Positions 43,762-57,751 of a stretch of DNA of 64,000 bases are shown piece after piece (positions within the stretch are counted from its first letter, which is position 1; the number at the start of each line of letters is the position of its first letter). Source of the DNA: Verrucomicrobiota bacterium (GTDB lineage Bacteria; Verrucomicrobiota; Verrucomicrobiia; Verrucomicrobiales; DEV007); contig CAUJIH010000093.1 of NCBI GenBank assembly GCA_963205275.1, forward strand, positions 62,001 through 126,000, written 5' to 3'. A program made the translations under genes and the position numbers. A model generated the notes under the pieces. It saw only the letters and a list, made by a program, of their open reading frames with translations. It was not told the DNA's origin and ran no database searches.

Positions 43762-45174
43762 ATGATTGCAAGAGCTGAACAAGTGATAGCGATGACGCCT
43801 GCGGCGGAGCATCGAGGTGAGGAGGGTAAGTTCGTGGTGCTGGATTCTGGCGCGGCGAAGGTGACGACGAGTGCGACGGCGAAGCCGCTGGGTGTGATCC
43901 TGGAGGGGGCTGCGGTGTCGGGTAAGTCGAGTATCGGGCTGCCGGGGTTCTCTGGTACGGTGAAGGTGAAGGTGACGGGGGCTAGCCCTGGCACGATCGC
44001 GCTGGGAACGTATCTGACGGTGAAGTCTGATGGGACGATCCAGGATCTGCGATCTGTGCGACGGATGAAGGTGGCGCTGGAGACGAATGTGCGGATGGCG
44101 CAGGGGAAGGCGCGGTGGGAGAGGTTCTCGGGGAATGAGCAATTCCCGGCGATGGAGCTGGTGCGGATCGAGGCGCGACGTGTGCCGAGGGAGTGGGCGA
44201 TGATCTGGGCGGAGGAGGCGGCGGGCTATCCGCGCACGGAGGTGTGTGTGGAGCCGCCGATGGCGCTGCATGGGTCGGGGATATGGCTGGATATCTCTCG
44301 CTTCGGGGTGCCGTGGCCGCCGTATAATTTCGGCAGTGGGATGGGGCAGAAGCCGGTGGCGCGGGATCGGGCGATGGAGGTGGGTCTGGATCCGGATGGT
44401 GCGACGACGGCTGCGGAGGATCTGAGTCTGAATCATGCTCTGGAGGTGACGCCGCAGGTGAGTGATGGGCGTCTGCGGGAGGCGCTGTCTGAGGGGATGC
44501 AGGGCTATGCGGAATGGGAGGGGGATAGGCTGGTGTTCACGGATCCGAACGGGACGCGTCCGACGACGGCAGAGGCGCTGGCGGAGGTCTGGGATCAGGG
44601 GCTGCCGGAGGGCTTTGCTCTGCATCAGCGGGATGCTCTGGTGGATTGGGTGCGGGATTCGCGTGTGTTTTATGATCGCCGTACGGAGGATGATGCGGCG
44701 CTGCGTTATGGCCGTGCGGAGTATCAACCGGGCACGAATGTGTGGCGGGATCTGCAGCGGCTGATCGCACGGCTGGTGAATGGAGATGGGGAGGTGGTGA
44801 TCTATCGGGGGCTGACGGTCCCAGATGCGGATCTGAAAGGGCTGCTGAAGGGGTGGCGGGCGGAGGGATATAGCCCGCATAGACGCAATGCGGCGGATAG
44901 TTGGACGAATAATCGGAGGTCGGCTCTGAATTACGCGGGGACGGGTGGCGACGGGGGCCGCTGGGCGGTGGTGCTGGAGTGGGCGAATCCTCGCCAGGCG
45001 AAGGATGTCACGGCGCTGGTGCGATCTCTGACGGAGAGGATCGGGAAGCTGAAGTCGCCGACGGTGGCGCAGGATGCGGAGTGGCTGTTGCCGCGTGGCG
45101 CCCGGGTGCGTGTGGTGTCGGTGCGCCGGGATGCGGGGAAGCGGACTTATTTTTTGAAGCTTTCGGACGAATGA
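43762..45174 (+). CDS. Chimeric phage protein: decoration domain - MuF C-terminal part - ADP-ribosyltransferase-like domain
   Basis: A 470-residue frame with three parts. Residues 1-94 (FVVLDSGAAKVTTSATAKPL, GTIALGTYLTVKSDG) match phage capsid-decoration (DUF2190-like) proteins. Residues about 96-205 (ALETNVRMAQGKARW, MELVRIEARRVPREWA, ISRFGVPWPPYNFGSGMG) match the C-terminal region of Mu F-type head morphogenesis proteins. Residues about 320-470 have R-S-E type ADP-ribosyltransferase marks: YRG at 348-350, SWT at 380-382, and DAEWLLPRG at 438-446 with Glu440. The join at residue 95 lacks any linker, which suggests a deletion fused two genes. Codon use is extreme (GCG, CTG, GGG), unlike the host genes. 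The effector-like end would be carried with the virion or act as a toxin; activity is unproven. Confidence 0.7.
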   Translation: MIARAEQVIAMTPAAEHRGEEGKFVVLDSGAAKVTTSATAKPLGVILEGAAVSGKSSIGLPGFSGTVKVKVTGASPGTIALGTYLTVKSDGTIQDLRSVRRMKVALETNVRMAQGKARWERFSGNEQFPAMELVRIEARRVPREWAMIWAEEAAGYPRTEVCVEPPMALHGSGIWLDISRFGVPWPPYNFGSGMGQKPVARDRAMEVGLDPDGATTAAEDLSLNHALEVTPQVSDGRLREALSEGMQGYAEWEGDRLVFTDPNGTRPTTAEALAEVWDQGLPEGFALHQRDALVDWVRDSRVFYDRRTEDDAALRYGRAEYQPGTNVWRDLQRLIARLVNGDGEVVIYRGLTVPDADLKGLLKGWRAEGYSPHRRNAADSWTNNRRSALNYAGTGGDGGRWAVVLEWANPRQAKDVTALVRSLTERIGKLKSPTVAQDAEWLLPRGARVRVVSVRRDAGKRTYFLKLSDE

Positions 45175-45356
45175 GGATTGTGGGTCATCTCATACAGGAA
45201 TTCTTCGCCTTCGGTGCGAAATTTGCGGCGCTTCATGCCGTCATCAAGGGCGCGTTGGGTGTAGCAATATTTGGCGGCGCGTTTGGCGGCGGGCATGGCC
45301 TGGGCGGCGGTGACGAGTGGATCGGGTGTGTGCCGGGTGCGATGTGGCTTTTTCAT
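45147..45356 (-). CDS. Small basic protein antisense in the phage block
   Basis: A 69-residue frame (MKKPHRTRHTPDPLVTAAQA start) with natural-looking codons (GCC, CGC, AAA, GAA) and a purine-rich AGAGAGAG a few bases before its ATG. The plus strand in this gap (45175-45370) has no better frame. It overlaps the 3' end of the chimeric gene by 28 bp tail to tail. I do not recognise the family. It is lysine/arginine-rich and could bind nucleic acid. Confidence 0.5.
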   Translation of the reverse strand: MKKPHRTRHTPDPLVTAAQAMPAAKRAAKYCYTQRALDDGMKRRKFRTEGEEFLYEMTHNPHSSESFKK

Positions 45357-45370
45357 GCTCTCTCTATCTA

Positions 45371-46000
45371 ATGCAAATTTCAGTAAATATCAATGATAAT
45401 GGTGTCTCTGCGGCTCTGGCTGGGCTGGCGGGGAGGCTGGCGGATCGCACGGGGCTGCATCAGCGTATGGGGAATGCGGTGGAGGCGTCTGTCATCGCGC
45501 ATCTGCTGGGGCTACCGGGTGAGCGATTCTACGGGCAGGCGGCGGAGAGTACGCAGGTGGAGGCGAGCGATGGTGAGGCGGTGGTGTCGATACGGAAGCG
45601 GGGGATGGCGCTGCGATACTATGGCGGTGTGGTACGCCCGAGTGGCAAGACGAGTGAGGTGACGGGGAAGCCGATCCGCAGTCTGAGTGTGCCTGTGGTG
45701 AAGGGTCTGCCGCCTATCGCGGAATATGGGAGTCCGCTGGCTTTCATCCCGCGCCGGGGGGGCGGTGCAACGGTGGGCTATCTGGTGGAGGGTGAGCGCT
45801 ATACGGTGGCGAGGGGTAAGAGGAAGGGGCAGCAGGCGGTGCGACCGGTGGGTAATGGGAGTCTGATGTATGTGCTGAGACGGCAGACGACGCATGAGCC
45901 GGATGCTAAGGTGCTGCCGACGATGGAGGCGCTGACGACGGCGGCGCGGATGGCGGCGGAGGCGTATCTGGGTAAGGGGTTGATGGAGGATATGACATGA
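45371..46000 (+). CDS. Phage virion morphogenesis protein (Mu gpG / tail completion-like)
   Basis: With the ATG at 45371 the protein is 209 residues. NDNGVSAALAGLAGRLADRT and HQRMGNAVEASVIAHL form the N-terminal pattern of the phage virion morphogenesis family (Mu G, P2 S type), which completes tails and joins heads. The start at 45317 would overlap the antisense gene and is not needed. Its last four bases overlap the next gene (ATGA). Codon use is as extreme as in the neighbouring phage genes. Confidence 0.7.
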   Translation: MQISVNINDNGVSAALAGLAGRLADRTGLHQRMGNAVEASVIAHLLGLPGERFYGQAAESTQVEASDGEAVVSIRKRGMALRYYGGVVRPSGKTSEVTGKPIRSLSVPVVKGLPPIAEYGSPLAFIPRRGGGATVGYLVEGERYTVARGKRKGQQAVRPVGNGSLMYVLRRQTTHEPDAKVLPTMEALTTAARMAAEAYLGKGLMEDMT

Positions 46001-46473
46001 GTGTGGGATCTGATTTTGACATGCTGGCGGAGGCGGATGGGCTGGCGGTGTATCTGCGCCGGGTGGCGGCGCTGGCGGATGTGCCGGTGATCGTGGCGCG
46101 GCAGCGGGATCTGGTAGCGGATATCGATGAGGCGGTGGCGAAGGCGGCGGGTGCGGCGATCCTGATCGCGCTGGATGGATGGCGGAATGTGAATGCGTCT
46201 AGTAATCGGACGCGGCTGGAGCTGACGCACAGTGTGTCGGTCTGGACGGCCCCTATCCTGTGGGAGGGGGCGATGGAGGAGAGTGAGGTGCTGGGTGTGC
46301 TGGTGAGTGCTGTGGGGATGGCGACGTCGGTCACGGGGGATGGGTGTGAGCGATGGGTGACGGCGGGGGGACGGTATATCGAGCATCCCAGGCACAGGGT
46401 GTATGAGTTCCCTGCAGCGGTGATGGTGGATCTGCCGTGGCCGGAGATGGTGGTGGAGGATGGGGAGGAATGA
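45997..46473 (+). CDS. Phage Gp37/DUF1834-like tail protein
   Basis: A 158-residue protein, coupled by a four-base overlap to the virion morphogenesis gene. The segments ILIALDGWRNVNASSNRTRL and THSVSVWTAPIL with a late WPEMVVED end resemble Mu-like gp37 or tail-terminator proteins, which follow gpG in Mu-like phages. The assignment depends as much on gene order as on sequence. Confidence 0.5.
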   Translation: MSVGSDFDMLAEADGLAVYLRRVAALADVPVIVARQRDLVADIDEAVAKAAGAAILIALDGWRNVNASSNRTRLELTHSVSVWTAPILWEGAMEESEVLGVLVSAVGMATSVTGDGCERWVTAGGRYIEHPRHRVYEFPAAVMVDLPWPEMVVEDGEE

Positions 46474-46787: not shown

Positions 46788-47489
46788 TCAGATTTCCACC
46801 TTCTCCAGCCGGTCTTTCCGCTGCCGCCAATCCGGTAGCACGGCATCGAGCATCTCGAAAAAGGCACGATTGTGGTTTGGGTGACGAAGGTGGCACAATT
46901 CGTGGACGATCACATAATCGATGCAGGCTGACGGGGAATGGATCAACTCTGGGTTGAGTGCGATTCGACCATCCTTACCGGCACTGCCCCAACGTTTTGG
47001 CATTCGGCGTAGTGAAAGCCAAGGCTCCGGCAAACCGTGGCGGCGGCACCAAGGCACCCAAGACTCAAGCCTTCGTTGAAACTGAATCCGCGCCCGGTCC
47101 CGAAACCATTGATCAAGCTGCCTCTGGACGTCGCCGGGGGTGCCGGTGGGTGAGACCACATGGAAATCTGCGCCTCGTAGGCGCACTGAAGGTTCCGGAC
47201 CCTTGAGGATCTTGAGACGATACTGCCGACCCAGGTAGCGGTGGGTGGCTCCGGAAACGTAGCGTCGGGGCATCCGAGTCGCATTCATCTCGGCGAAAGC
47301 CCGCCGCTGGCGCTCGATCCACTTCGCCCGCTTGCCGACCTTGGCGAGGATAGACGACTCGCCCGAAGCGAGGGGAGCCGTCAGTTCCAAGCTCCCGTCG
47401 GGCAGCACGCTGATTGCGAGCGTTTTGCGCGCCGTTCGCTTTAGGGTAGCGGGACCGGCGGGGGTCGCCATTATCTCGATTCTAGACAT
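46788..47489 (-). CDS. YgjP-like (DUF45/M48-type) metallopeptidase
   Basis: With the ATG at 47489 the protein is 233 residues. HELCHLRHPNHNRAF near residue 195 gives HExxH plus a downstream histidine, the zinc site of the YgjP/WLM family. The upstream RYLGRQYRLKI and SLRRMPKRWGSAGKDGRIALN segments are the usual family motifs. Its start overlaps the hsdR stop by eight bases (ATGTCTAG), so it is the last gene of the restriction operon and is translationally coupled. YgjP-type genes often sit beside type I restriction genes; the function there is not established. Confidence 0.9.
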   Translation of the reverse strand: MSRIEIMATPAGPATLKRTARKTLAISVLPDGSLELTAPLASGESSILAKVGKRAKWIERQRRAFAEMNATRMPRRYVSGATHRYLGRQYRLKILKGPEPSVRLRGADFHVVSPTGTPGDVQRQLDQWFRDRARIQFQRRLESWVPWCRRHGLPEPWLSLRRMPKRWGSAGKDGRIALNPELIHSPSACIDYVIVHELCHLRHPNHNRAFFEMLDAVLPDWRQRKDRLEKVEI

Positions 47490-50400
47490 CTTCGCGGCGG
47501 TTGATGGCGATGGCGAGGGCGGCATCGACGATGGCGTCGATCTGGTCCCAGGTCAGGGAAATCCCCCGTTTTCTCTGTAGTTCGACAAAGTAGTCGTCGA
47601 GGTCGTCGCGCATCCGGTTCTGGGCATCTTGGTTTTCGCGCCATCGCACCACGGCGTGTCGGCGAATGATGTCCTCCATCTCGCAGGCCGCCTCCGCCAT
47701 CACTTGCTCGAAGGAGACGGATTCGGGATCGTTCCGGGTCGTGTATTCCACGTCGTCTTCGCGAACTGAGGTCCGACCAGTGCTCATCTTATCTTTCAGC
47801 GCACCAAAGAGGGCGCGGGAGAGGACCCGTTCCTTGAGGATCTCCGGACCCTCCGCCGACTTTCCGTCGCGGACTTGCTCCATCACCTCGGTGACGCGGC
47901 GCAGGTACTCGGCATCGCTGATCCGCTGCGCACGGTAGTCGTCGATCGCCTGTTGCAGCAGTTGGGAGAAGCGCCGGTAGAAGAAAGGATCCTCGTCCAT
48001 CTTCTCGGTGATCGTCTTCTTCGTCCGGTTGGCGATGGTGTCGGCCTTGGCGCGGGGGCTCTGGGCCTTGTCCACCTCGGCCTGAAACGCTTCGCGCTCG
48101 AAGATGTTCACCGGATCGACGATTTGGATCACTTCGTCGGCCTGGACGTAGGTGTTGAGCATCTTTTGGATCTGTTTCTCGTAGTCCCGGTAGTCGATCT
48201 CCTCGGCGTAGCGCAGTTTTACGCTGGCTCGCAGCTTTTGGAAGAACCCGGCCTCGCGCTTGTAGCGGTCGATCTTCTCCGGCGGCGTGTCGGTGATCCA
48301 GTGGATGCTGGACAGCGCCATCTTGAGCACCCGGGTGAACTTCGACAGGCGGGTGTAGAACTCGTCGCGGACATCCTTGTTCTCCAGAGCGAGTTCGAAG
48401 GCCTCCTCGTCCTTTTTGTTTTTCACCTCCTTGAAAAGATCCCACAAGGCGTCGTGCAATCCGGGGAGTCTCTTCAGCTCCTCGTCAATCACTGTCAGGG
48501 CCCCTTCGAGATCCTCCTGGTCGAATTTCCCTTCGAGACTGCTGTACAGTTCCAGCGCCTCGTGGAGCTGGCTGACGACGCCGTAGTAATCGATGATGTA
48601 TCCGAAATCCTTGCCGGGATGCAGCCGGTTCACCCGGGCGATGGCTTGGAGAAGATTGTGCTCCTTCAGGCTCCGCGCGATGTACAAGACGACGTTCCGA
48701 GGGGCGTCGAAGCCGGTCAGGAGCTTATCGACGACGATGAGGAGATGCGGTTCTTCCTTCTTCTTGAAGGCCTCGATGATCTGCCGGTTGTACTCCTTCT
48801 CGGAGCTGTATTTGGCCATCATCGCCTTCCAGAAAAGCTCGATGCTCTCGTCCTTCTCCTCCTGCTGGTGGTCCTCCGGGTTCTCGATCTCGCCGGGGCC
48901 GGAAATCACTACCTCGCTGGTGACCTTGCCGAACTGGTCGAGAAAGCTCTTCAGCAAAAGAGCCTCCCGTTTGCCCGGTGCAGTGACCTGGCCCTTGAAT
49001 TCCGTGCCAAGCCATTCCTTCGAAAAATGCTGCGAAATGTCCCAAGCGATCAGGTACATCCGGCTCTGGAGGCGGTTCAGTTCGTCCCGGGCGGAGAATT
49101 TCCGCTTTAGATCGGCGCGTTGCTCGGGGGTGAGGCCTTCGCACATGGCGTCGAACATCTTGTCGACCGCCTTCGTGTTCACCTCCTGCAAGACATGGCG
49201 TCCCTCGTAGAGGAGCGGCACCACGGCCTTGTCATCGACGGCATCGCGGATCGTGTAAGTCGCCTCTTTGATGAAGCCGCCGAATTTATCCGCAGTGCTC
49301 TTTTCCTTCTTCATCAGCGGCGTGCCGGTGAAGCCGATGTAGCAGGCATTGGGCAGCGCCTTCTGCATCCGCAGGTTTGCCTCGCCGTAGTGGCTGCGGT
49401 GACTCTCGTCGACGAGGACGAACAGATTATCGTCCTCGACCGTGAAATGCTTCGAGTCCTTGGCCGCCGCGCCGAATTTCTGGATCAGGGTGGTGATGAC
49501 GCCGACATGCCCGTCCTTGAGCAGCTCGATCAGGTGCGGACCCGTCTTGGCCTGGACCGGGTCCTTGCCGCACTGGTGGAAGGTCTTCCAGATCTGCTCG
49601 TCGAGGTCGATACGGTCGGTGACGATGACGATCCGGGCATTCGGGATGCCTTTTTCAAGAGCTAAGGCCTTGCCAAGCAGGACCATTGCCAGCGACTTGC
49701 CCGATCCCTGGGTCTGCCAGATGACCCCGCCCTTGCGTCGGCCGTGCCGATCGCGCTGGCGAACCCGCTCGATGGTGCTCCGGATCGCGAAATACTGCTG
49801 GTAGCGGGCAACCTTCTTCACCGCGCCCCCTTCGTCGTAGAGGATGAACTGCCGGGCCAGCTCGATCAGGCGCTCGGGTCGGCAGAGCGACCAGAGAAGA
49901 TGGTCCTGCCCCGTCGGCTCGCGGCCGCCCATGATCTTCTCCTCGAAGTCGGCCCGAGCGAAGGCGAACATGCCTTTGAAGAGCTTCGCGTGCTCCTCCG
50001 GACGGACCGGACTGTTCACCGCAGCCCTGACCGCATCGCTCACGTCGTGGATCTCGCGCCACTTCGCCCAGAATTTCGGTTGGGTGTCGGTGGTCGCGTA
50101 GCTGCCCTCGTTCTTGTTCAGGGCCATCACGAGCTGGGCGTAGTGGAAGAGGTGCGGGATCTCGTCCTCCTTCTGGTTGCGGACGTTCTGGTTGACCGCC
50201 TGCTCCAGGGAAAACTTTGCGTCGGGCCGCTTGCACTCGATCACGAAGAAGGGGATGCCGTTGACAAAACCGACGATGTCCGGCCGCCGGGTTTCGTGGC
50301 TTCCGGTCCGCTCCACCTCGTACTCGGCGGTGACGTGGAAGGTGTTGTTCCTCGGGTTCTCCCAGTCGATGTAGCGGAGCGTGAAGCCTTTGGTTTCGCC

Positions 50401-50730
50401 GTCGATGGTCTGGTCGAGGCTCTTGCCGAGGGTGAGCAGGTCGTAGGCCTTTTCGCTGGTCTTGACGAGGCCCTCGGGCGGCAGGTCGCGCAGGGCTTCG
50501 ATCGCCTTGGCGAGATTCTCCTCCGAGAAGGCCACTTCCCGACCCTTGAAGGAAATCCGGTTCAGCCGGCGGAGCTGCCGGGCGAGGATGTCTTCGAGCA
50601 GCACCCGTCCCAACTTCCCCTTCCGCTCGACTGCGACGTCTTCGGGGCCGAGATAGCCGTAGCCGAGCTGCTGGAGGAAACGCAGCGCGGGGATCTGGCT
50701 GATCGAGGCTTCTTTGAAGTCGGGGGTCAT
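47482..50730 (-). CDS. hsdR: Type I restriction enzyme, R subunit
   Basis: A 1082-residue protein. The nuclease domain has RPDIVGFVNGIPFFVIECKRP with Asp151, Glu165 and Lys167, the PD-(D/E)xK set. The translocase has TQGSGKSLAMV near residue 343 (Walker A) and LVDESHRSHYG (DEAD-type box), GFTGTPLM and AIARVNRLHPGKDFGYIIDY as motif VI region. It is about the usual length and seems intact. It moves DNA through the complex with HsdM and HsdS and cuts unmodified DNA at a distance. It overlaps fic by four bases upstream and the metallopeptidase by eight downstream. Its first 75 codons have a second copy inside the SEFIR gene. Confidence 0.97.
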   Translation of the reverse strand: MTPDFKEASISQIPALRFLQQLGYGYLGPEDVAVERKGKLGRVLLEDILARQLRRLNRISFKGREVAFSEENLAKAIEALRDLPPEGLVKTSEKAYDLLTLGKSLDQTIDGETKGFTLRYIDWENPRNNTFHVTAEYEVERTGSHETRRPDIVGFVNGIPFFVIECKRPDAKFSLEQAVNQNVRNQKEDEIPHLFHYAQLVMALNKNEGSYATTDTQPKFWAKWREIHDVSDAVRAAVNSPVRPEEHAKLFKGMFAFARADFEEKIMGGREPTGQDHLLWSLCRPERLIELARQFILYDEGGAVKKVARYQQYFAIRSTIERVRQRDRHGRRKGGVIWQTQGSGKSLAMVLLGKALALEKGIPNARIVIVTDRIDLDEQIWKTFHQCGKDPVQAKTGPHLIELLKDGHVGVITTLIQKFGAAAKDSKHFTVEDDNLFVLVDESHRSHYGEANLRMQKALPNACYIGFTGTPLMKKEKSTADKFGGFIKEATYTIRDAVDDKAVVPLLYEGRHVLQEVNTKAVDKMFDAMCEGLTPEQRADLKRKFSARDELNRLQSRMYLIAWDISQHFSKEWLGTEFKGQVTAPGKREALLLKSFLDQFGKVTSEVVISGPGEIENPEDHQQEEKDESIELFWKAMMAKYSSEKEYNRQIIEAFKKKEEPHLLIVVDKLLTGFDAPRNVVLYIARSLKEHNLLQAIARVNRLHPGKDFGYIIDYYGVVSQLHEALELYSSLEGKFDQEDLEGALTVIDEELKRLPGLHDALWDLFKEVKNKKDEEAFELALENKDVRDEFYTRLSKFTRVLKMALSSIHWITDTPPEKIDRYKREAGFFQKLRASVKLRYAEEIDYRDYEKQIQKMLNTYVQADEVIQIVDPVNIFEREAFQAEVDKAQSPRAKADTIANRTKKTITEKMDEDPFFYRRFSQLLQQAIDDYRAQRISDAEYLRRVTEVMEQVRDGKSAEGPEILKERVLSRALFGALKDKMSTGRTSVREDDVEYTTRNDPESVSFEQVMAEAACEMEDIIRRHAVVRWRENQDAQNRMRDDLDDYFVELQRKRGISLTWDQIDAIVDAALAIAINRREDV
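50501..50693 (-). repeat. hsdR 5' segment, source copy of a 193-bp direct repeat
   Basis: Aligns gap-free with 52091-52283 at a constant offset of 1590 bp and with roughly 90 percent identity by eye, including a long exact block around 50551-50600 and the final 60 bases. It encodes HsdR residues about 13-77. Confidence 0.93.
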
Positions 50731-52046
50731 TTCGTCGCGCTTTTCGCCCTGATGTCGTCGAATACGACCTTCAACAGCTTTTCAATGATCATGGCCCGCT
50801 CATCCGAAAGGACCGGTTCCGTGTAGAGCTTTTGAACCAGTGCTTTATTTCCGACGGAGATTTTGTAGTCGGACGGTTCAAACCGGATCTGCAACGCCAC
50901 CTGGGAGTCGAAGCGTGTCCTGGCCTCGCCACGGTATCCGGTATAACTGAAGGTCAGATGAAAATGATTGAAATCCTTGAATCCCCCTCCCATCTGGGTT
51001 TGGAAGGCACTCATTGGTGACTTGTTCCCGGCCGGACCCCGGGGATCACACGTCAATGCCGAGTTTAAAAAGAGGGGATCGAACACCTTCATTTTTTCCT
51101 GTGCGCGAACGATCAGGTCCTCGAGTCCGTTCTCGTAGAGCTTCTTGATCGCCTCTTTCGATTTCGGTTGAACCTTCTCCCGATGCGGCTCCTGGCTTCT
51201 CACGAAAATCGCGATCTGCTTCTCAATGTCGCTCGGTTCCGCGATGTTCTCTCCCTTGGCCGCACGAACTGCCATTTCGAGGGAATCGTGGATACGCTTC
51301 CGCAAAAACCGGCTGAGTTCTTCGAGATCACCGGCATCGGCGAGACGAAGGGCAGCGAGATACGCCATTTTATCCTCGGTTGGGATGATGATCGGAGGGT
51401 AGCCGCTCCGCAACAGCAGGTAGTTCACGAGCATCCGCGCCACCCGCCCATTCCCGTCGTCGAAAGGGTGGATCAGCACGAAATCGTGGTGCAACTTCGC
51501 CGCCACCGCGGCAATCCTGGAAGACGGATCCCTCATCTGCGCCGAGAGCCACCCCACCAGCTCCCGCATCCTTGCCGGGACTTCGTTGGGTGCGGCGAAT
51601 TCGAAGATCTCACCCGTCGCTGTGCGCACGTTGTTCGGCGTGCTCTTGTATTCGCCGGGAATGATCTGCTTCCGGGTGGGCTGGCCGTCCGCGGTAATGG
51701 TTGGCTTCCAGAAGGGCTCCTTCAGGATGATCTTGTTGAGATCACGAATGTCTGTTTCGGAGAGATCCCGTTCGTCGTCGCCGGCCAGCTTGCGGAGGTG
51801 ATCGATGCCGAGATCGTGGGCCTTCATCTCCACATACTCCCGAATATCGTGGCTGCCGTGGGTCTGATCGTGGAGCAGGAGTAATTCGGTTTCACCGTAT
51901 GTCAGGGTATTGCCTTCGATGTGATTCGAATGATAATTCCATTCCAATCGAAGCTTCTGCCAAAGGCGTTTCTCATGCTCAGATGGCAGCGGCTGGAGGG
52001 AATTCCATTCGCGATGAAGGTCGAGGATTTCGGGATCTTGATCCAT
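50727..52046 (-). CDS. Fic family protein (class II, self-inhibited type)
   Basis: A 439-residue protein. The Fic motif HPFDDGNGR at residues 193-201 is complete, with His193 as catalytic base. SNHIEGN at residues 40-46 matches the inhibitory (S/T)xxxE(G/N) helix of class II enzymes, with Glu44 expected to block ATP binding until released. A C-terminal winged-helix-like part follows (EKQIAIFVRSQEPHREKVQP region). Fic enzymes usually transfer AMP to a protein hydroxyl. Its stop overlaps the hsdR start (ATGA), so it is tightly built into the restriction operon. Target unknown. Confidence 0.93.
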   Translation of the reverse strand: MDQDPEILDLHREWNSLQPLPSEHEKRLWQKLRLEWNYHSNHIEGNTLTYGETELLLLHDQTHGSHDIREYVEMKAHDLGIDHLRKLAGDDERDLSETDIRDLNKIILKEPFWKPTITADGQPTRKQIIPGEYKSTPNNVRTATGEIFEFAAPNEVPARMRELVGWLSAQMRDPSSRIAAVAAKLHHDFVLIHPFDDGNGRVARMLVNYLLLRSGYPPIIIPTEDKMAYLAALRLADAGDLEELSRFLRKRIHDSLEMAVRAAKGENIAEPSDIEKQIAIFVRSQEPHREKVQPKSKEAIKKLYENGLEDLIVRAQEKMKVFDPLFLNSALTCDPRGPAGNKSPMSAFQTQMGGGFKDFNHFHLTFSYTGYRGEARTRFDSQVALQIRFEPSDYKISVGNKALVQKLYTEPVLSDERAMIIEKLLKVVFDDIRAKSATK

Positions 52047-52077
52047 GAGTTTGGGTTGGTGAATTGATGCTGCGGTT

Positions 52078-52713
52078 TCAGAGCGGAACGATCGCCTTGG
52101 CGAAGTTCTCCTCGGAGAAGGCGACCTCCCGGCCCGCGAAGGTGATCCGGTTCAGCCGGCGGAGCTGCCGGGCGAGGATGTCTTCGAGCAGCACCCGCCC
52201 CAACTTTCCCTTTCGCTCGACCGTGACGTCTTCGGGGCCGAGATAGCCGTAGCCGAGCTGCTGGAGGAAACGCAGCGCGGGGAACGGCTCGTCCGGATCT
52301 TCGATGTCCTCGCTCAGGTCGATGTATTTCCGGGTTCCCAGGGCCGTGGGAACGACACGTTTCTTTGCCGTTTGGCGCACGACTGGGACAAACTTGCGGA
52401 CTCCTTGATCGGCGATCAATTCCGCGGAAACGATCATTGCCTCGTAACCCGCGCCGCCTTTCCCGTCATCCACCTTCCGCACATACTTCTCGGTGCAGAT
52501 CATCAACACCCTGTCGGCATCACGGACACCTGATTCCATGAACTTGGCCATGTCGTCGCCTGGTTCGGTGTCCCACTGGTCAAGAATCACATCGACTCCT
52601 TTTTCACGCAGCCGGGTTGCGAGTTTTGCGACCCAAGCTTTGTGGTCTTTGTCGTCGTGGGAGTAAGAAATGAACACCTTTGGCGGGTTCGGATAGCTTT
52701 CGTCGTCTGACAT
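52078..52713 (-). CDS. SEFIR/TIR-domain protein fused in frame to a copy of the HsdR N-terminus
   Basis: A 211-residue protein. Residues 11-115 are a SEFIR-type TIR domain: VFISYSHDDKDHKAWVAKLA, VDVILDQWDTEPGDD, DADRVLMICTEKYV, and Glu91 as a candidate catalytic acid. From residue 145 (PALRFLQQLGYGYLGPEDV) to residue 208 it repeats HsdR residues 13-77 almost exactly, then stops after VPL. Bacterial SEFIR and TIR domains degrade NAD to kill infected cells. The HsdR-like tail could place the domain on the HsdM/HsdS complex, or could be an accidental by-product of recombination. It lies 19 bp after hsdS and 31 bp before fic. Confidence 0.88.
   Translation of the reverse strand: MSDDESYPNPPKVFISYSHDDKDHKAWVAKLATRLREKGVDVILDQWDTEPGDDMAKFMESGVRDADRVLMICTEKYVRKVDDGKGGAGYEAMIVSAELIADQGVRKFVPVVRQTAKKRVVPTALGTRKYIDLSEDIEDPDEPFPALRFLQQLGYGYLGPEDVTVERKGKLGRVLLEDILARQLRRLNRITFAGREVAFSEENFAKAIVPL
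52091..52283 (-). repeat. hsdR 5' segment, second copy of the 193-bp direct repeat
   Basis: Second copy of 50501-50693, located in the 3' part of the SEFIR gene. Substitutions are mostly at third codon positions (for example GTC versus CCG pairs giving conservative changes), so the copy has stayed in frame since duplication. Confidence 0.9.
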
Positions 52714-52732: not shown

Positions 52733-54007
52733 TTAGGGATGGACCCGGATCCTGCCGGTCAGGAGGCGCTGCATGAGGCCGCGCTTCTGGAGGTTCAGGG
52801 CGTCGCGTTGACGGCGGAGGAGGGTGAGTTCGGCGTCGCAGGTGTCGAAGACGTCGGTGATGGCGCGCTGCTCGTCTTCCAATGGAAGCCAGATCTTGAT
52901 CTTGGCGAACTCCTTGTAGCGGAGGCTACCACGGCGATCCACTGAGGCGCTGGTGTTTACTTGATAGAGGTGGACCAGCAAAGGGCTCTTGAGGACGCGG
53001 AAGAGGTAGCGATCGTCAACGCGGGACTCAGTCTTGAAGACGGTGTAGATCGGGCTGACCAAGCCGGCATCACAGAGGTCCTGGTAGCCAATGGAGCCTT
53101 CCTCGATATGGTTGGTCGCGTAGGCGAACTCTCCCCGGCGGACGACCCGATAGCCGCTTGTGTCCTCCGCGAAAACCCGCTTACCGAAATACTCCTCGGA
53201 GCGGACAAGGCCACGGTGCTTGGTACACGAAAGCACTGGGAGCGCCGCCCCGCTCTTGTTCCGATGGCTGACCTCCCGTGCGATGTCTCCGATGTGTACA
53301 TGGGACCAATCGGCGGGCCAAATGCCGAACTTGTCGGATTCCGTCTTGCCCTGCGATTCGTCGAAACCCGGCAGGCGCTTCTTCCCCGTGAGAAGCTGCT
53401 GCATTAGCCCCTTCTTGCGCCGTTCCTTTGCGTCGATGAGGGCGTCGAGCTTTTCGAGGGCCTCGTCCCAGGTGGTGAGGATTTCGGCGATCTTTTGTTG
53501 CTCGGGGAGTGGTGGGACCGGGATCGGAATTCTTGAAAACTCTGATTTGTTGACAATCGGAACGGCTTGGTTGCCGGTCAGTGCCGTGAGGTGAGGTGTC
53601 GCGGCGGAGACGGAGTAAAACAGAAACTCCGGAACCATCTGGCCGCCTGCCGTTGCTGCATTGATTTGCTGATTCGCACCACAGTCTTCCGAGACGATTC
53701 CAGCTTTTCCGATACTGGAACCGATACAAACGACCACGGTTGATCCCGCAGTTATGGGACGAGTCTTTCGGAGACCTTCTGAAGTCAGAGTCCGTTCTGT
53801 CTTTCGTATGAATTTCGATGGTTTCACGTCGCCCGGCGTGACGAACGGAACTGACCCTCCGTAGTTGATCGTTTCGTCGCCCGAGGGAGTGGATCCAGTG
53901 ATGACTTTTGCGACCTTCCCAAGCTCCCCCCACGCCCAATCCACAGGAATCTCCCCCGCTGCGGTCAGCTTGGTCTTCTTCGAGGCATTCAATGAAATCT
54001 TCGGCAT
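52733..54007 (-). CDS. hsdS: Type I restriction enzyme, specificity subunit (two target-recognition domains)
   Basis: A 424-residue protein with the classic S-subunit plan: TRD1 (about 20-165, starting PVDWAWGELGKVAKVITGST), central coiled-coil (about 165-210, PEQQKIAEILTTWDEALEKL, MQQLLTGKKRLPGF), TRD2 (about 228-370) and distal coiled-coil (about 375-424, MQRLLTGRIRV). The two coiled-coil repeats match each other, as needed for binding two HsdM units. It sets the split DNA site read by the complex; the site cannot be deduced here. Confidence 0.95.
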   Translation of the reverse strand: MPKISLNASKKTKLTAAGEIPVDWAWGELGKVAKVITGSTPSGDETINYGGSVPFVTPGDVKPSKFIRKTERTLTSEGLRKTRPITAGSTVVVCIGSSIGKAGIVSEDCGANQQINAATAGGQMVPEFLFYSVSAATPHLTALTGNQAVPIVNKSEFSRIPIPVPPLPEQQKIAEILTTWDEALEKLDALIDAKERRKKGLMQQLLTGKKRLPGFDESQGKTESDKFGIWPADWSHVHIGDIAREVSHRNKSGAALPVLSCTKHRGLVRSEEYFGKRVFAEDTSGYRVVRRGEFAYATNHIEEGSIGYQDLCDAGLVSPIYTVFKTESRVDDRYLFRVLKSPLLVHLYQVNTSASVDRRGSLRYKEFAKIKIWLPLEDEQRAITDVFDTCDAELTLLRRQRDALNLQKRGLMQRLLTGRIRVHP

Positions 54008-54019
54008 GACAATTCGAGG

Positions 54020-55042
54020 TTAGCCGAGCAAGGAATCGAGGTCGGCGATGAGGGTGCGGATGATGTTCGTGCCGCTTTGGTCGGCGGTGTTCGACCATCC
54101 GTGGGCGGCGGAAGCTCGGGCGAGGGCGGGGGACGCGAGTTTGAGGGCTTCGCGAAGCTGGATCGCTTGAAAGTTTTCGGATTTTTCATCTAGGCCGGGT
54201 TTGCCGAGGACGTCGAGCAAGGTCTGGATGGCCTTAAAAAGGGGAGCCCAGTTGACCCAACGGGGAAACTCCTCCGCGTCCGGCCAGGTCAGCAGGAACC
54301 GCCAGTCCTCGTGGCGCAACATGGCGAAACTTTTCTCCCTACCGATGCGCATCGACCCGATGTGGCCGGAGGCGGACAGGTCGTTGAGCACATTCTGGAT
54401 GCTGCGGCGGAAGTAGCCCGTCTCGCGGGCGATTTCCGCCGGGTGCCCTTGGTCGTGGGCCAGGAGCCAGGCCATGACTTCGGCCCGAGCCTGGATGCCG
54501 AAGAGGGCGCGGAGTTTGAAGAGAAAGGTAGCGGGTTGGTCAGGCCGGGGTTCCACGCTCATTCCGCGCAAGGCGACCTGTCCCCGCTCCAAGCCGTGTC
54601 TGAGGAAATCGGGGTCGGGTTCCTTGATGACGGGGATGGTCGGGAAGAGACGTTCGACCGATCCACTGGCCGGTGAATCGGATTTCCCGACCCTCCGGAG
54701 GAAAAGCTTCCACCTGAGGTTCGACGACTCCCGCGACAGAAGATCCGCGATGGCGGCGAGGACCGCGGAGTCGCCAAGCCCCTCGTCTTGGTGAAGGGTG
54801 CCAAGCCGTTGCAGGTTGATCCAGGCACCGTTCCGGTGGAGCCAGTCGAGGATCTCGTCGAACAGGCGGCTGTCATGCCGGGCGATGTGGGTGGAAAAGA
54901 GAAGCAAAGCCTCGGGATCGATCGCCCACGGGTCTTCGCTGTGGGCATGACCCGCCACCCCCAGGGCGGACCACTGCCGCCATAGGAAATCCAGAAGCCG
55001 CTGCAGCAGCTCCTCTCTAGATTTCGTCAATGAGGGATTCAT
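54020..55042 (-). CDS. Winged-helix protein paired with a nucleotidyltransferase
   Basis: A 340-residue protein, unassigned by family. Helix-turn-helix at about residues 196-232 (HPAEIARETGYFRRSIQNVL, SASGHIGSMRIG). The N-terminal half is rich in leucine and tryptophan helices. Its start overlaps the nucleotidyltransferase gene by 26 bp, so the two are translationally coupled. A palindrome at 55629-55649 ahead of the pair is a likely target for its DNA-binding domain. The pair resembles AbiE-type systems in content (winged helix plus nucleotidyltransferase), but the gene order is reversed and this protein is longer than AbiEi. Confidence 0.65.
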   Translation of the reverse strand: MNPSLTKSREELLQRLLDFLWRQWSALGVAGHAHSEDPWAIDPEALLLFSTHIARHDSRLFDEILDWLHRNGAWINLQRLGTLHQDEGLGDSAVLAAIADLLSRESSNLRWKLFLRRVGKSDSPASGSVERLFPTIPVIKEPDPDFLRHGLERGQVALRGMSVEPRPDQPATFLFKLRALFGIQARAEVMAWLLAHDQGHPAEIARETGYFRRSIQNVLNDLSASGHIGSMRIGREKSFAMLRHEDWRFLLTWPDAEEFPRWVNWAPLFKAIQTLLDVLGKPGLDEKSENFQAIQLREALKLASPALARASAAHGWSNTADQSGTNIIRTLIADLDSLLG

Positions 55043-55613
55043 GGTCGAGCGCTTTGAGGACTTTCCCGAGAACGAACAAGAACCCTTCCGAAGGGTCCTG
55101 GGTGCGGGTCCACCGTGCGGCGGCGAGCAGTTCCTCCGCCGTCGGCTGAAGTTCTTTCAAATCCTGGAAATGGCGACCGGTGTCGGTATCGGCTGTGGCG
55201 TAGAGCTTGAAAAAGACCTGATCCCGGCGGCTGATGAAGCTGATGCGGAGATTTCTGTCTGGGCCGTAGTCCCTCGCGATCAAGCGGCCCGCCATTCCCT
55301 CGGGGAAGCCGAAGCGGAAGAACGAATCATCGGAGGGTCCGGTGTTGAACCAATTCTCCATAAGTCCGAGCTGGGTCCCGACTTCTTCCGCTGCCGCGGC
55401 AAGCCAGTCGGGCAAGGGCCTTGCGGTGATGAGTCCCTCGTCATCGACTCGGGCGAGAACGTCGACGTCACGGGTGGTGGGTCGGCTCACCAGTCCGAGC
55501 GCTAGAAGCGAGGAGCCTCCGCAAACCACCCAGTGCTGCGCCGGCTGGTCAGCGGTCAGTTCGGCAAGGAGGTTAAGAGCCTCTTCAAGGAGCTTAGAAT
55601 CGAGTTTTTTCAT
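55017..55613 (-). CDS. Nucleotidyltransferase-like protein (AbiEii/DUF6036-type)
   Basis: With the ATG at 55613 the protein is 198 residues; an upstream start at 55676 would lie inside hsdM. The nucleotidyltransferase core is VVCGGSSLLALGLVSRPTTR followed by DVDVLA: GGS at residues 32-34, aspartates at 49 and 51. A third carboxylate cannot be fixed. FFKLYATADTDTGRHFQDL near residue 135 is the usual second helix-turn pattern of toxin-type members. The context suggests a toxin or an RNA-modifying effector of the restriction operon. Confidence 0.75.
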   Translation of the reverse strand: MKKLDSKLLEEALNLLAELTADQPAQHWVVCGGSSLLALGLVSRPTTRDVDVLARVDDEGLITARPLPDWLAAAAEEVGTQLGLMENWFNTGPSDDSFFRFGFPEGMAGRLIARDYGPDRNLRISFISRRDQVFFKLYATADTDTGRHFQDLKELQPTAEELLAAARWTRTQDPSEGFLFVLGKVLKALDHESLIDEI

Positions 55614-55628
55614 TTTATAAGCTATTTT

Positions 55629-55649
55629 AAATGCCCATAATGGGTATTT
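55629..55649. promoter_or_regulatory. 21-bp near-perfect palindrome, putative operator
   Basis: AAATGCCCATAATGGGTATTT (55629-55649) reads the same on both strands apart from the centre and one pair. It is the only such element in the 46-bp gap between hsdM and the nucleotidyltransferase and sits 16 bp upstream of its ATG. The position fits autoregulation by the winged-helix partner. Confidence 0.65.
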
Positions 55650-55659
55650 CAAGTAGCAT

Positions 55660-57156
55660 TTAATATCCCAAGGCATCCAAATGCTCCGCCATTCGTTTCC
55701 GTACTTCCGCGAGTTCCGCCTCCAAATCGTGAATCTCCCGTTTCACCTCCTCTAGGTCGATTTTCTCCTCTTCCTCAAACGTGTCCACATACCGCGGGAT
55801 GTTGAGGTTGAAGTCGTTGTCGGCGAGTTCCTTCGGAGTGGCTCGGTAGGCGTATTTGTCCACGGTCTCGAAGGCGCGGAAGGTGGCGACGATCTTGTCT
55901 AAATGCTCGTCGGTGAGCACGTTCTGGTTCTTGGCCTCCTTGAATTCGCACGAGGCGTCGATGAAGAGCACGTCCCCATGCGTCTTGCCCTTGTTGAAGA
56001 TGAGAATGGCAGCGGGGATGCCGGTGCCGAAGAACAGGTTGGCGGGCAGGCCGATGACGGCTTCCAGCAGGTTCTCCTCGATCAGGGCCTTGCGGATCTT
56101 GCCCTCGGCCGCGCCCCGGAAGAGGACGCCGTGGGGCACGACCACCGCGACCTTGCCGGTGCCCTCGCGGGCGGTCTCGATCATGTGGGTGATGAAGGCG
56201 TAGTCGCCCTTAGACTTCGGCGGGATGCCGCGGTGGTACCGGACATATGGGTCGGCCTCGGCAGCGTCCTGCCCCCACTTGTCGAGCGAGAAGGGCGGAT
56301 TGGCGACGACGATGTCGAACTTCATGAGCTGATCGCTCTCGACCAGCCGCGGGTTGCGCAGCGTGTCGCCCCACTTGATCTCGAACTTGTCCATGCCGTG
56401 GAGGAACATGTTCATCCGGCACAGGGCGTGGGTAGTCCCGTTCATTTCCTGGCCGAAGAGGGCGAAGTCCCGCTCGTCCGCCTGACGCCCCACCTGAATG
56501 AGCAGCGATCCCGAGCCACAAGCCGGGTCGCAGATCGTGTCGCCCTTCTTCGGATCGAGCAGGCGGGCGATGAGACGAGAGACTTGGGCGGGGGTGTAGA
56601 ACTCACCGGCCTTTTTCCCAGCATCCGAGGCGAAGCGCTCCAGCAGGTATTCGTAGACATTCCCGATGATGTCCTCGGACCCGATGATCGATGGCCGGAG
56701 GTCGAGCCGTTTGTCGGCGAAGTCTTCAAGCACATGCTTGAGCTTCGGATTGCGGTCGCGGGTCTCGCCCAGCTTCGACTCGGAATTGAAATCGACCTCG
56801 CGGAAGACCCCTTCGAGCTTGGCCTTGTTGGCCTCCTCGATCTCGGCCAGGGCGATGTTCATCTTTTCCCCGATGTCGGTGCTGCTGCGCTGCTCGTAGA
56901 GCGAGTAGAAGTCGGCACCCTCCGGGAGCTGGAAGCGTTCGCGGGAAAGACGGCGCTGCACGCGGACCTCGTCGCCGTCGTATTCCTTCAGGTAGCGGTC
57001 GCGATGATCGCGCCAGACATCGGAGGCGTATTTCCAGAACAACATCACGAGGATGTAGTTCCGGTAGTTCTCGGCATCGACGAGGCCGCGGAAGGTATCG
57101 CAGGCGCGCCAGGCGGCCTCGTTGATCTCGGCTTGGTTGTGAACGGACTTGGCCAT
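55660..57156 (-). CDS. hsdM: Type I restriction enzyme, modification subunit
   Basis: With the ATG at 57156 the protein is 498 residues; an upstream start at 57261 overlaps the half-S gene. HsdM hallmarks: N-terminal helical domain (WRACDTFRGLVDAENYRNYI), SAM motif DPACGSGSLLIQVG near residue 210, catalytic NPPFSLDKWG near residue 288, and GIPAAILIFNKGK. The C-terminal coiled-coil LEEVKREIHDLEAELAEVRK serves HsdS contact. It methylates adenine in the target site to protect host DNA. Confidence 0.96.
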   Translation of the reverse strand: MAKSVHNQAEINEAAWRACDTFRGLVDAENYRNYILVMLFWKYASDVWRDHRDRYLKEYDGDEVRVQRRLSRERFQLPEGADFYSLYEQRSSTDIGEKMNIALAEIEEANKAKLEGVFREVDFNSESKLGETRDRNPKLKHVLEDFADKRLDLRPSIIGSEDIIGNVYEYLLERFASDAGKKAGEFYTPAQVSRLIARLLDPKKGDTICDPACGSGSLLIQVGRQADERDFALFGQEMNGTTHALCRMNMFLHGMDKFEIKWGDTLRNPRLVESDQLMKFDIVVANPPFSLDKWGQDAAEADPYVRYHRGIPPKSKGDYAFITHMIETAREGTGKVAVVVPHGVLFRGAAEGKIRKALIEENLLEAVIGLPANLFFGTGIPAAILIFNKGKTHGDVLFIDASCEFKEAKNQNVLTDEHLDKIVATFRAFETVDKYAYRATPKELADNDFNLNIPRYVDTFEEEEKIDLEEVKREIHDLEAELAEVRKRMAEHLDALGY

Positions 57157-57160
57157 GGGT

Positions 57161-57751
57161 TCAAGAGATTTTTCGGGTGAGGATCTGTTGGTAAGTGGCT
57201 TGGAGGAGGAGCTTGCGCTTTTCAGCGATGAGATGGAGCAGCTCGCGCTCGCGGGCCGCAAGGTCGGAGAGGGCGCAGAGCCTGCCTTGAAGATCGAGCG
57301 GAGGGATCGGAACGGGAAGATCGCGGACGACCGCGATGGAAACGGTCTTCACGTAGCTGCCTCGGGCATGAGACGAGAGGTGGGCTTGGGTCGTGGCGAG
57401 GTTGAGAAACCAGTGTAGGTAATCGGGGGTCACCTTCCGGGAAATCGGGCGCACGATGAAAAGCTGACCGCTGGCCACTGCCTCCAAATTCGCGGACACG
57501 AGGGCGGCGGTCATGCGGGTGCCCCGGTTGGCGATGAGGATGTCGCCGGGGGCAACGTGGTAACGCGGGTCGTCGCCCAGACCAGGGTCGAGGAGATGGG
57601 GGCTTCCGATCTCAATCCGGCCGTTTTCCGCGAGGTCGCTGATGCGGAGCAGATGCAGCCCCCCCTTCGCGGTCCGCCGGGCCGCGTCCGGGCCGCGCAG
57701 GGTCAGACCGGTGCGGATGTCGGCAAGATCGCTAAGAAGGGACTGCATCAT
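57161..57751 (-). CDS. Half-length specificity-subunit-like protein (single TRD)
   Basis: A 196-residue protein. LADIRTGLTLRGP and HLLRISDLAENGRIEIG start a single target-recognition domain of the HsdS fold; YHVAPGDILIANRGTRMTAAL and LPVPIPPLDLQGRLCALSDL are the usual later motifs, ending in one coiled-coil. It lacks a second TRD and second coiled-coil. It could form an inverted dimer to bind a palindromic site, compete with full HsdS at 52733, or act as a modulator. Its stop is 4 bp from the hsdM start. Confidence 0.85.
   Translation of the reverse strand: MMQSLLSDLADIRTGLTLRGPDAARRTAKGGLHLLRISDLAENGRIEIGSPHLLDPGLGDDPRYHVAPGDILIANRGTRMTAALVSANLEAVASGQLFIVRPISRKVTPDYLHWFLNLATTQAHLSSHARGSYVKTVSIAVVRDLPVPIPPLDLQGRLCALSDLAARERELLHLIAEKRKLLLQATYQQILTRKIS

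Follow-up and report, generated by a model that had tools for sequence, protein, structure and literature searches.

A type I restriction operon with a fused SEFIR gene

The window, a 64,000-nt stretch of a Verrucomicrobiota contig, holds a type I restriction-modification operon on the minus strand that is transcribed in the order half-length hsdS, hsdM, a nucleotidyltransferase/winged-helix pair, hsdS, a truncated SEFIR gene, fic, hsdR and a ygjP-like gene. The hsdM gene (55660-57153; N6_Mtase, HsdM_N), hsdS (52733-54007; Methylase_S) and an intact hsdR of 1082 aa (47482-50730; HSDR_N, SWI2_SNF2, T1R_D3-like, T1RH-like_C) are collinear with foreign defence-type genes between them, which places the operon among type I systems with embedded defence genes. 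Both flanking genes recur in relatives: the half-length hsdS-like gene 5′ of hsdM (57161-57751; Methylase_S) has a position conserved in most relatives, and the ygjP-like metallopeptidase gene after hsdR (46788-47525; YgjP-like, 2.9e-54) is found in the same place in most of them. The hsdM-hsdS interval is a second cargo slot of the operon. Its further cargo comprises a gene for a 340-aa winged-helix-like protein (54020-55042; weak HTH_29; 78% in L090) and one for its partner, a 219-aa DUF6036/AbiEii-like nucleotidyltransferase identified by domain search (55017-55676; 82% in L090). This pair (54020-55676) is kept in L090, L084, L131, L135 and L077. Directly past the end of the restriction operon, the plus strand carries phage-derived-looking genes (43762-46473).

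The hsdS-hsdR interval contains two genes. The fic gene (50727-52046; 439 aa; Pfam Fic, 5.9e-17; PADLOC PDC-S04/SoFic type) lies next to hsdR and would be the newer cargo. Upstream of it, the SEFIR ORF (52713-52078, minus strand) encodes 211 aa, of which residues 1-143 form a SEFIR (TIR-like) domain (52285-52713), residues 144-208 correspond to HsdR residues 13-77 (52090-52284), and VPL plus a stop codon complete the frame (52078-52089); the sequence from there onward is unrelated to hsdR. At the DNA level the HsdR-like segment is one arm of a 195-nt direct repeat with 92% identity, which joins 52089-52283 at the end of the SEFIR gene to 50499-50693 (hsdR nt 38-232) at an offset of exactly 1590. 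The preliminary description had reported an in-frame copy of HsdR 13-77 at this offset, and alignment together with reading of the ORF confirmed it; the size and identity given there, 193 bp and about 90 percent, are revised to the values above. The match is far above chance level, with E ~1e-77 even when the slots of 42 loci are searched together. Genome-wide, the 195-nt sequence is present just twice, and contig C93 (154 kb) carries both copies. Over codons 14-77 they differ at 15 nt, with 10 synonymous and 5 nonsynonymous changes. We note that these differences are clustered, with 5 in codons 14-58 and 10 in codons 59-77 (p = 0.002), a pattern that may reflect gene conversion or a mosaic origin. 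At the junctions of the tail, possible microhomology amounts to just 1-3 nt.

The tail is recognized by Pfam as HSDR_N with E 4e-4, under the curated cut-off, and it covers a part of HsdR that excludes both the PD-(D/E)xK motif (150-167) and the SF2 motor (311-538) of an HsdR subunit. The nuclease motif, P150 D151...E165-C-K167, is invariant in 19 HsdRs. AlphaFold models were too poor to use for both HsdR 1-260 (mean pLDDT 37) and the SEFIR-tail protein (mean pLDDT 50).

The SEFIR part itself is well defined (Pfam SEFIR, 7.8e-18; TIR_2, 8.5e-26; PADLOC bSEFIR, 1.9e-65, matched over 38-167 of 412), and the protein has the N-terminal SEFIR/TIR-like domain of bSEFIR while lacking the C-terminal region, which spans about 370 aa in full-length relatives. 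It has one close relative, the 516-aa bSEFIR of L033 (Akkermansiaceae UBA2381; L082 has the same gene), and the two are 85% identical over residues 1-147 and unrelated beyond. Their identity ends at the very point where the HsdR piece begins, so about 370 C-terminal codons were lost; a search for the missing C-terminus throughout the window's genome found it absent. Full-length SEFIR genes (508-519 aa) occupy the same hsdS-hsdR slot in L079, L080, L085 and L125, and in L088 a SEFIR gene cut by the contig end directly follows hsdS. bSEFIR is an NAD-depleting single-gene defence system. The G-Y-E91 motif, which from TIR domains we take to be catalytic, is retained in the window protein and present in 16/16 aligned domains. 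The SEFIR domain has a dN/dS of 0.05 against L033, and amino-acid changes are not in excess on the window branch. Because the domain is conserved the truncated protein may still act or the truncation may be recent.

hsdR 5′ stubs in other type I operons

To look for comparable pieces, we took 42 operons from this and related families and compared the hsdR of every locus by BLAST with the hsdS-hsdR slot of that locus (E < 1e-4). Repeats aside, the matches came solely from the hsdR 5′ end and were found in the window, L096, L125 and L085, with a breakpoint around hsdR codons 13-20 in 4/4; reversed slots, used as a control, gave zero matches. Two relatives, L085 and L125, have a full-length SEFIR gene with an hsdR 5′ stub directly behind it and newer cargo after the stub. 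The hsdR of L085 sits on contig L086, and the two contigs belong to one genome and overlap by 119 bp. Their combined order is hsdM, hsdS, SEFIR (515 aa), an hsdR stub (codons 1-19), fic, a DUF3800-like gene (our own reading of the sequence) and hsdR. In L125 the SEFIR gene (508 aa) overlaps the stub by ATGA. This stub is 91% identical to the hsdR of L131, which is another genome, versus 79.5% to the hsdR of its own locus, and by this comparison the stub and the downstream hsdR are different alleles. On the strength of these two values, the old allele would have been left in place and a new hsdR would have come with the cargo. At L125:7550-7600 the hsdR start codon and the first 17 stub codons are fused in frame and open a 506-aa cargo protein (PADLOC PDC-M36A-like). 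L096, of the same genus, contains a third hsdR stub.

Stubs of this kind are not confined to operons with SEFIR genes. Among 67 further HSDR_N loci of the class, taken regardless of cargo, clean hsdR 5′ stubs were present in six (L157, L176, L182 (twice), L194, L197 and L209), with no opposite-strand matches among these stub loci. A third set of 14 loci from further genomes yielded three more, in L223 (a single-contig genome), L224 and L229. In total, an hsdR 5′ stub lies upstream of an intact hsdR in 13/123 type I loci, on the same strand in all. The genes behind the stubs include RhuM, DUF1016, Fic, DUF4268, AbiEi/AbiEii, Schlafen-AlbA and DUF3800; behind most stubs the cargo is a defence-type gene, and several are PADLOC phage-defence candidates. 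Some stub ORFs are still open, extending to 119 aa in L224 and 193 aa in L223. Two serial stubs are found at L182:4100-6900, one at 81% (older) before DUF1016 and one at 100% over 33 nt (newer) before Fic. In operons of the E. coli K-12 type hsdR comes first, and as a negative control this hsdR was sought in 926 genomes; none contained it at a second site. Few-contig genomes of the 67-locus set gave stubs in 0 of ~15 loci, numbers too small to matter.

Matches in L162, L198 and L224 (interior hits) and in L071, L170 and L218 were left uncounted, being repeats or lying outside the hsdR 5′ end. The hsdR of L071 is flanked by a ~53-bp direct repeat (upstream -67 to -17, downstream +3246 to +3298), the upstream copy of which is also found in L072.

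Origin of the HsdR-derived tail

Taken with the stubs at other loci, the tail is likely to be a scar left when cargo was acquired in the hsdS-hsdR slot, with the fusion most likely a by-product and the tail passive. The hsdS-hsdR slot of type I restriction operons would be an accumulation site for defence genes, and the DNA that brings in a newcomer would carry an hsdR as well. Homologous recombination in hsdR would join one end of this DNA to the locus, and an illegitimate join in the resident gene's 5′ part the other. The locus would thus regain a complete hsdR from the incoming DNA, while of the old one the first 10-110 codons would persist as a stub after the previous gene. In so tight an operon, entry may be harmless only where the incoming DNA mends what the entry breaks. 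For the window, we infer that SEFIR preceded hsdR, that fic and a complete hsdR then arrived, and that SEFIR ended up followed by a stub extending to codon 77. A secondary in-frame deletion, before, during or after the arrival of fic, probably joined the two, taking the ~370 SEFIR C-terminal codons and the first 13 stub codons; the frame would have been kept by chance, leaving a truncated SEFIR with a passive 65-residue tail. The preliminary description had offered as its second reading that fic was inserted at the start of hsdR and left a 5′ piece attached to the upstream gene, and the recurrence of stubs supports this reading at the cost of one extra step, the deletion just described. That second event must be assumed because the window piece starts at hsdR codon 13/14, a point against the scar account, as other stubs start near codon 1; no intermediate for it was seen among the loci compared. 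Of the features expected of homology-facilitated illegitimate recombination, remnants are present and the one in L125 derives from another allele, while the homologous junction in hsdR was not located.

The main alternative to an added in-frame loss is a single-step templated insertion, in which repair of a break in SEFIR would have used hsdR, 1.6 kb away, as template for 195 bp and then rejoined the end before fic. In its favor, both ends of the piece lie in mid-hsdR and its junctions have so little possible microhomology. The tail and the window hsdR are also mutually closest: of 192 nt, 15 differ between them, compared with 30-35 against the next closest hsdR, that of L090. Because they are sisters, a plain local copy fits as well as two alleles do. 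We nevertheless consider this route unlikely, as it leaves unexplained both the hsdR 5′ stubs right after SEFIR in the independent same-order loci L085 and L125 and the fact that stubs elsewhere begin at the hsdR start. An assembly artefact is the least probable reading. The genome is a draft of 109 contigs and most stub loci are in draft genomes, but the copies differ at 15 sites of the compared codons, neither junction falls within sequence common to the joined parts, the missing SEFIR C-terminus is absent elsewhere in the genome, and the same kind of stub occurs in the single-contig genome L223.

The preliminary description gave as its first reading that the HsdR piece may dock the NADase on the HsdM-HsdS complex and compete with or report on HsdR. 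In such a functional capture the piece would replace the lost SEFIR sensor and act as a decoy or reporter of HsdR. The fusion is open and in frame, and the low dN/dS of the SEFIR domain makes a long period of free decay improbable: if the fusion were as old as the split of the tail from hsdR (dS ~0.1 on the tail branch), neutral decay of SEFIR would predict ~30 amino-acid changes, which are absent. The dN/dS of the tail against hsdR is 0.16, a value that cannot separate selection on the fusion from divergence predating it. Polarising the 10 synonymous and 5 nonsynonymous differences with 16 relatives assigns 5 nonsynonymous and 5 synonymous changes to the tail branch, and 0 and 5 to the hsdR branch; these counts suggest relaxed constraint on the tail but are too small for significance (p = 0.10). 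Two of the changes, A33T and K62A, alter residues invariant in the 16 HsdR relatives. The preliminary description had also proposed a search for SEFIR-HsdR fusions at other loci; none was found in ~1,100 genomes plus plasmid, phage and viral collections, leaving the fusion unique to this locus. A search of plasmids with another HsdR N-terminus gave one weak match. The tail also lacks the nuclease motif, and in EcoR124I the C-terminal helical domain of HsdR, and not its N-terminus, is thought to assemble with HsdM (PMC5248579). With little in favor of docking, and with a selection-free process that makes such pieces being common (13/123 loci), we regard functional capture as very improbable. 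A broader version, in which stubs are a standing supply of HsdR N-terminal parts and some now serve as decoys or tethers for the restriction complex, draws on the observation that stubs stay ORFs (L223, L224) or join immune proteins (the SEFIR tail, the N-terminus of the L125 cargo); it seems to us only slightly less improbable.

Significance and comparison with known systems

The general scar pattern is more interesting than the fusion itself. It bears on how defence genes get inside other defence operons, with hsdR stubs marking the seams. Stubs show that newcomers enter at the hsdR start and suggest that hsdR is an anchor rebuilt by incoming DNA. They also allow arrivals to be ordered and dated relative to one another, the two stubs of L182 being an example, and offer a sequence signature by which embedded defence genes can be found. 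Stubs likewise caution that a fusion to a piece of HsdR may be in frame and yet have no function.

Embedding of this kind has precedents. DarTG2 of an EPEC island is embedded between hsdS and hsdR, an interval called a potential recombination hotspot for defence genes in the available text of PMC12255303, and TgvAB lies within a V. cholerae type I cluster, according to the available text of PMC11411939; 'guilt by embedding' is credited there to Payne et al. The window shares with these systems the kind of operon, with PMC12255303 the slot as well, and the kind of cargo, here SEFIR and Fic and in relatives AbiD, DUF3800, DUF1016, RhuM and AbiE. Although the hotspot is named there, the available text of the two papers does not describe hsdR 5′ stubs as footprints of each arrival, and we found no such description in the titles and abstracts of the openly searchable literature. 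The window protein resembles bSEFIR (PADLOC PDLC03957) in its SEFIR domain with the G-Y-E91 motif, 85% identical to a full-length member, but has 65 HsdR-derived residues instead of the ~370-residue C-terminal region. Homology-facilitated illegitimate recombination has been proposed for orphan gene pieces in T6SS immunity arrays and for rhs orphan 3′ ends (PMC5361080). As in those arrays, new modules would displace an old gene end and serial remnants stay behind. There, however, variable 3′ parts are orphaned, whereas in the present loci the anchor gene hsdR leaves its 5′ end behind, and in the window one such remnant is fused to the upstream immune gene.
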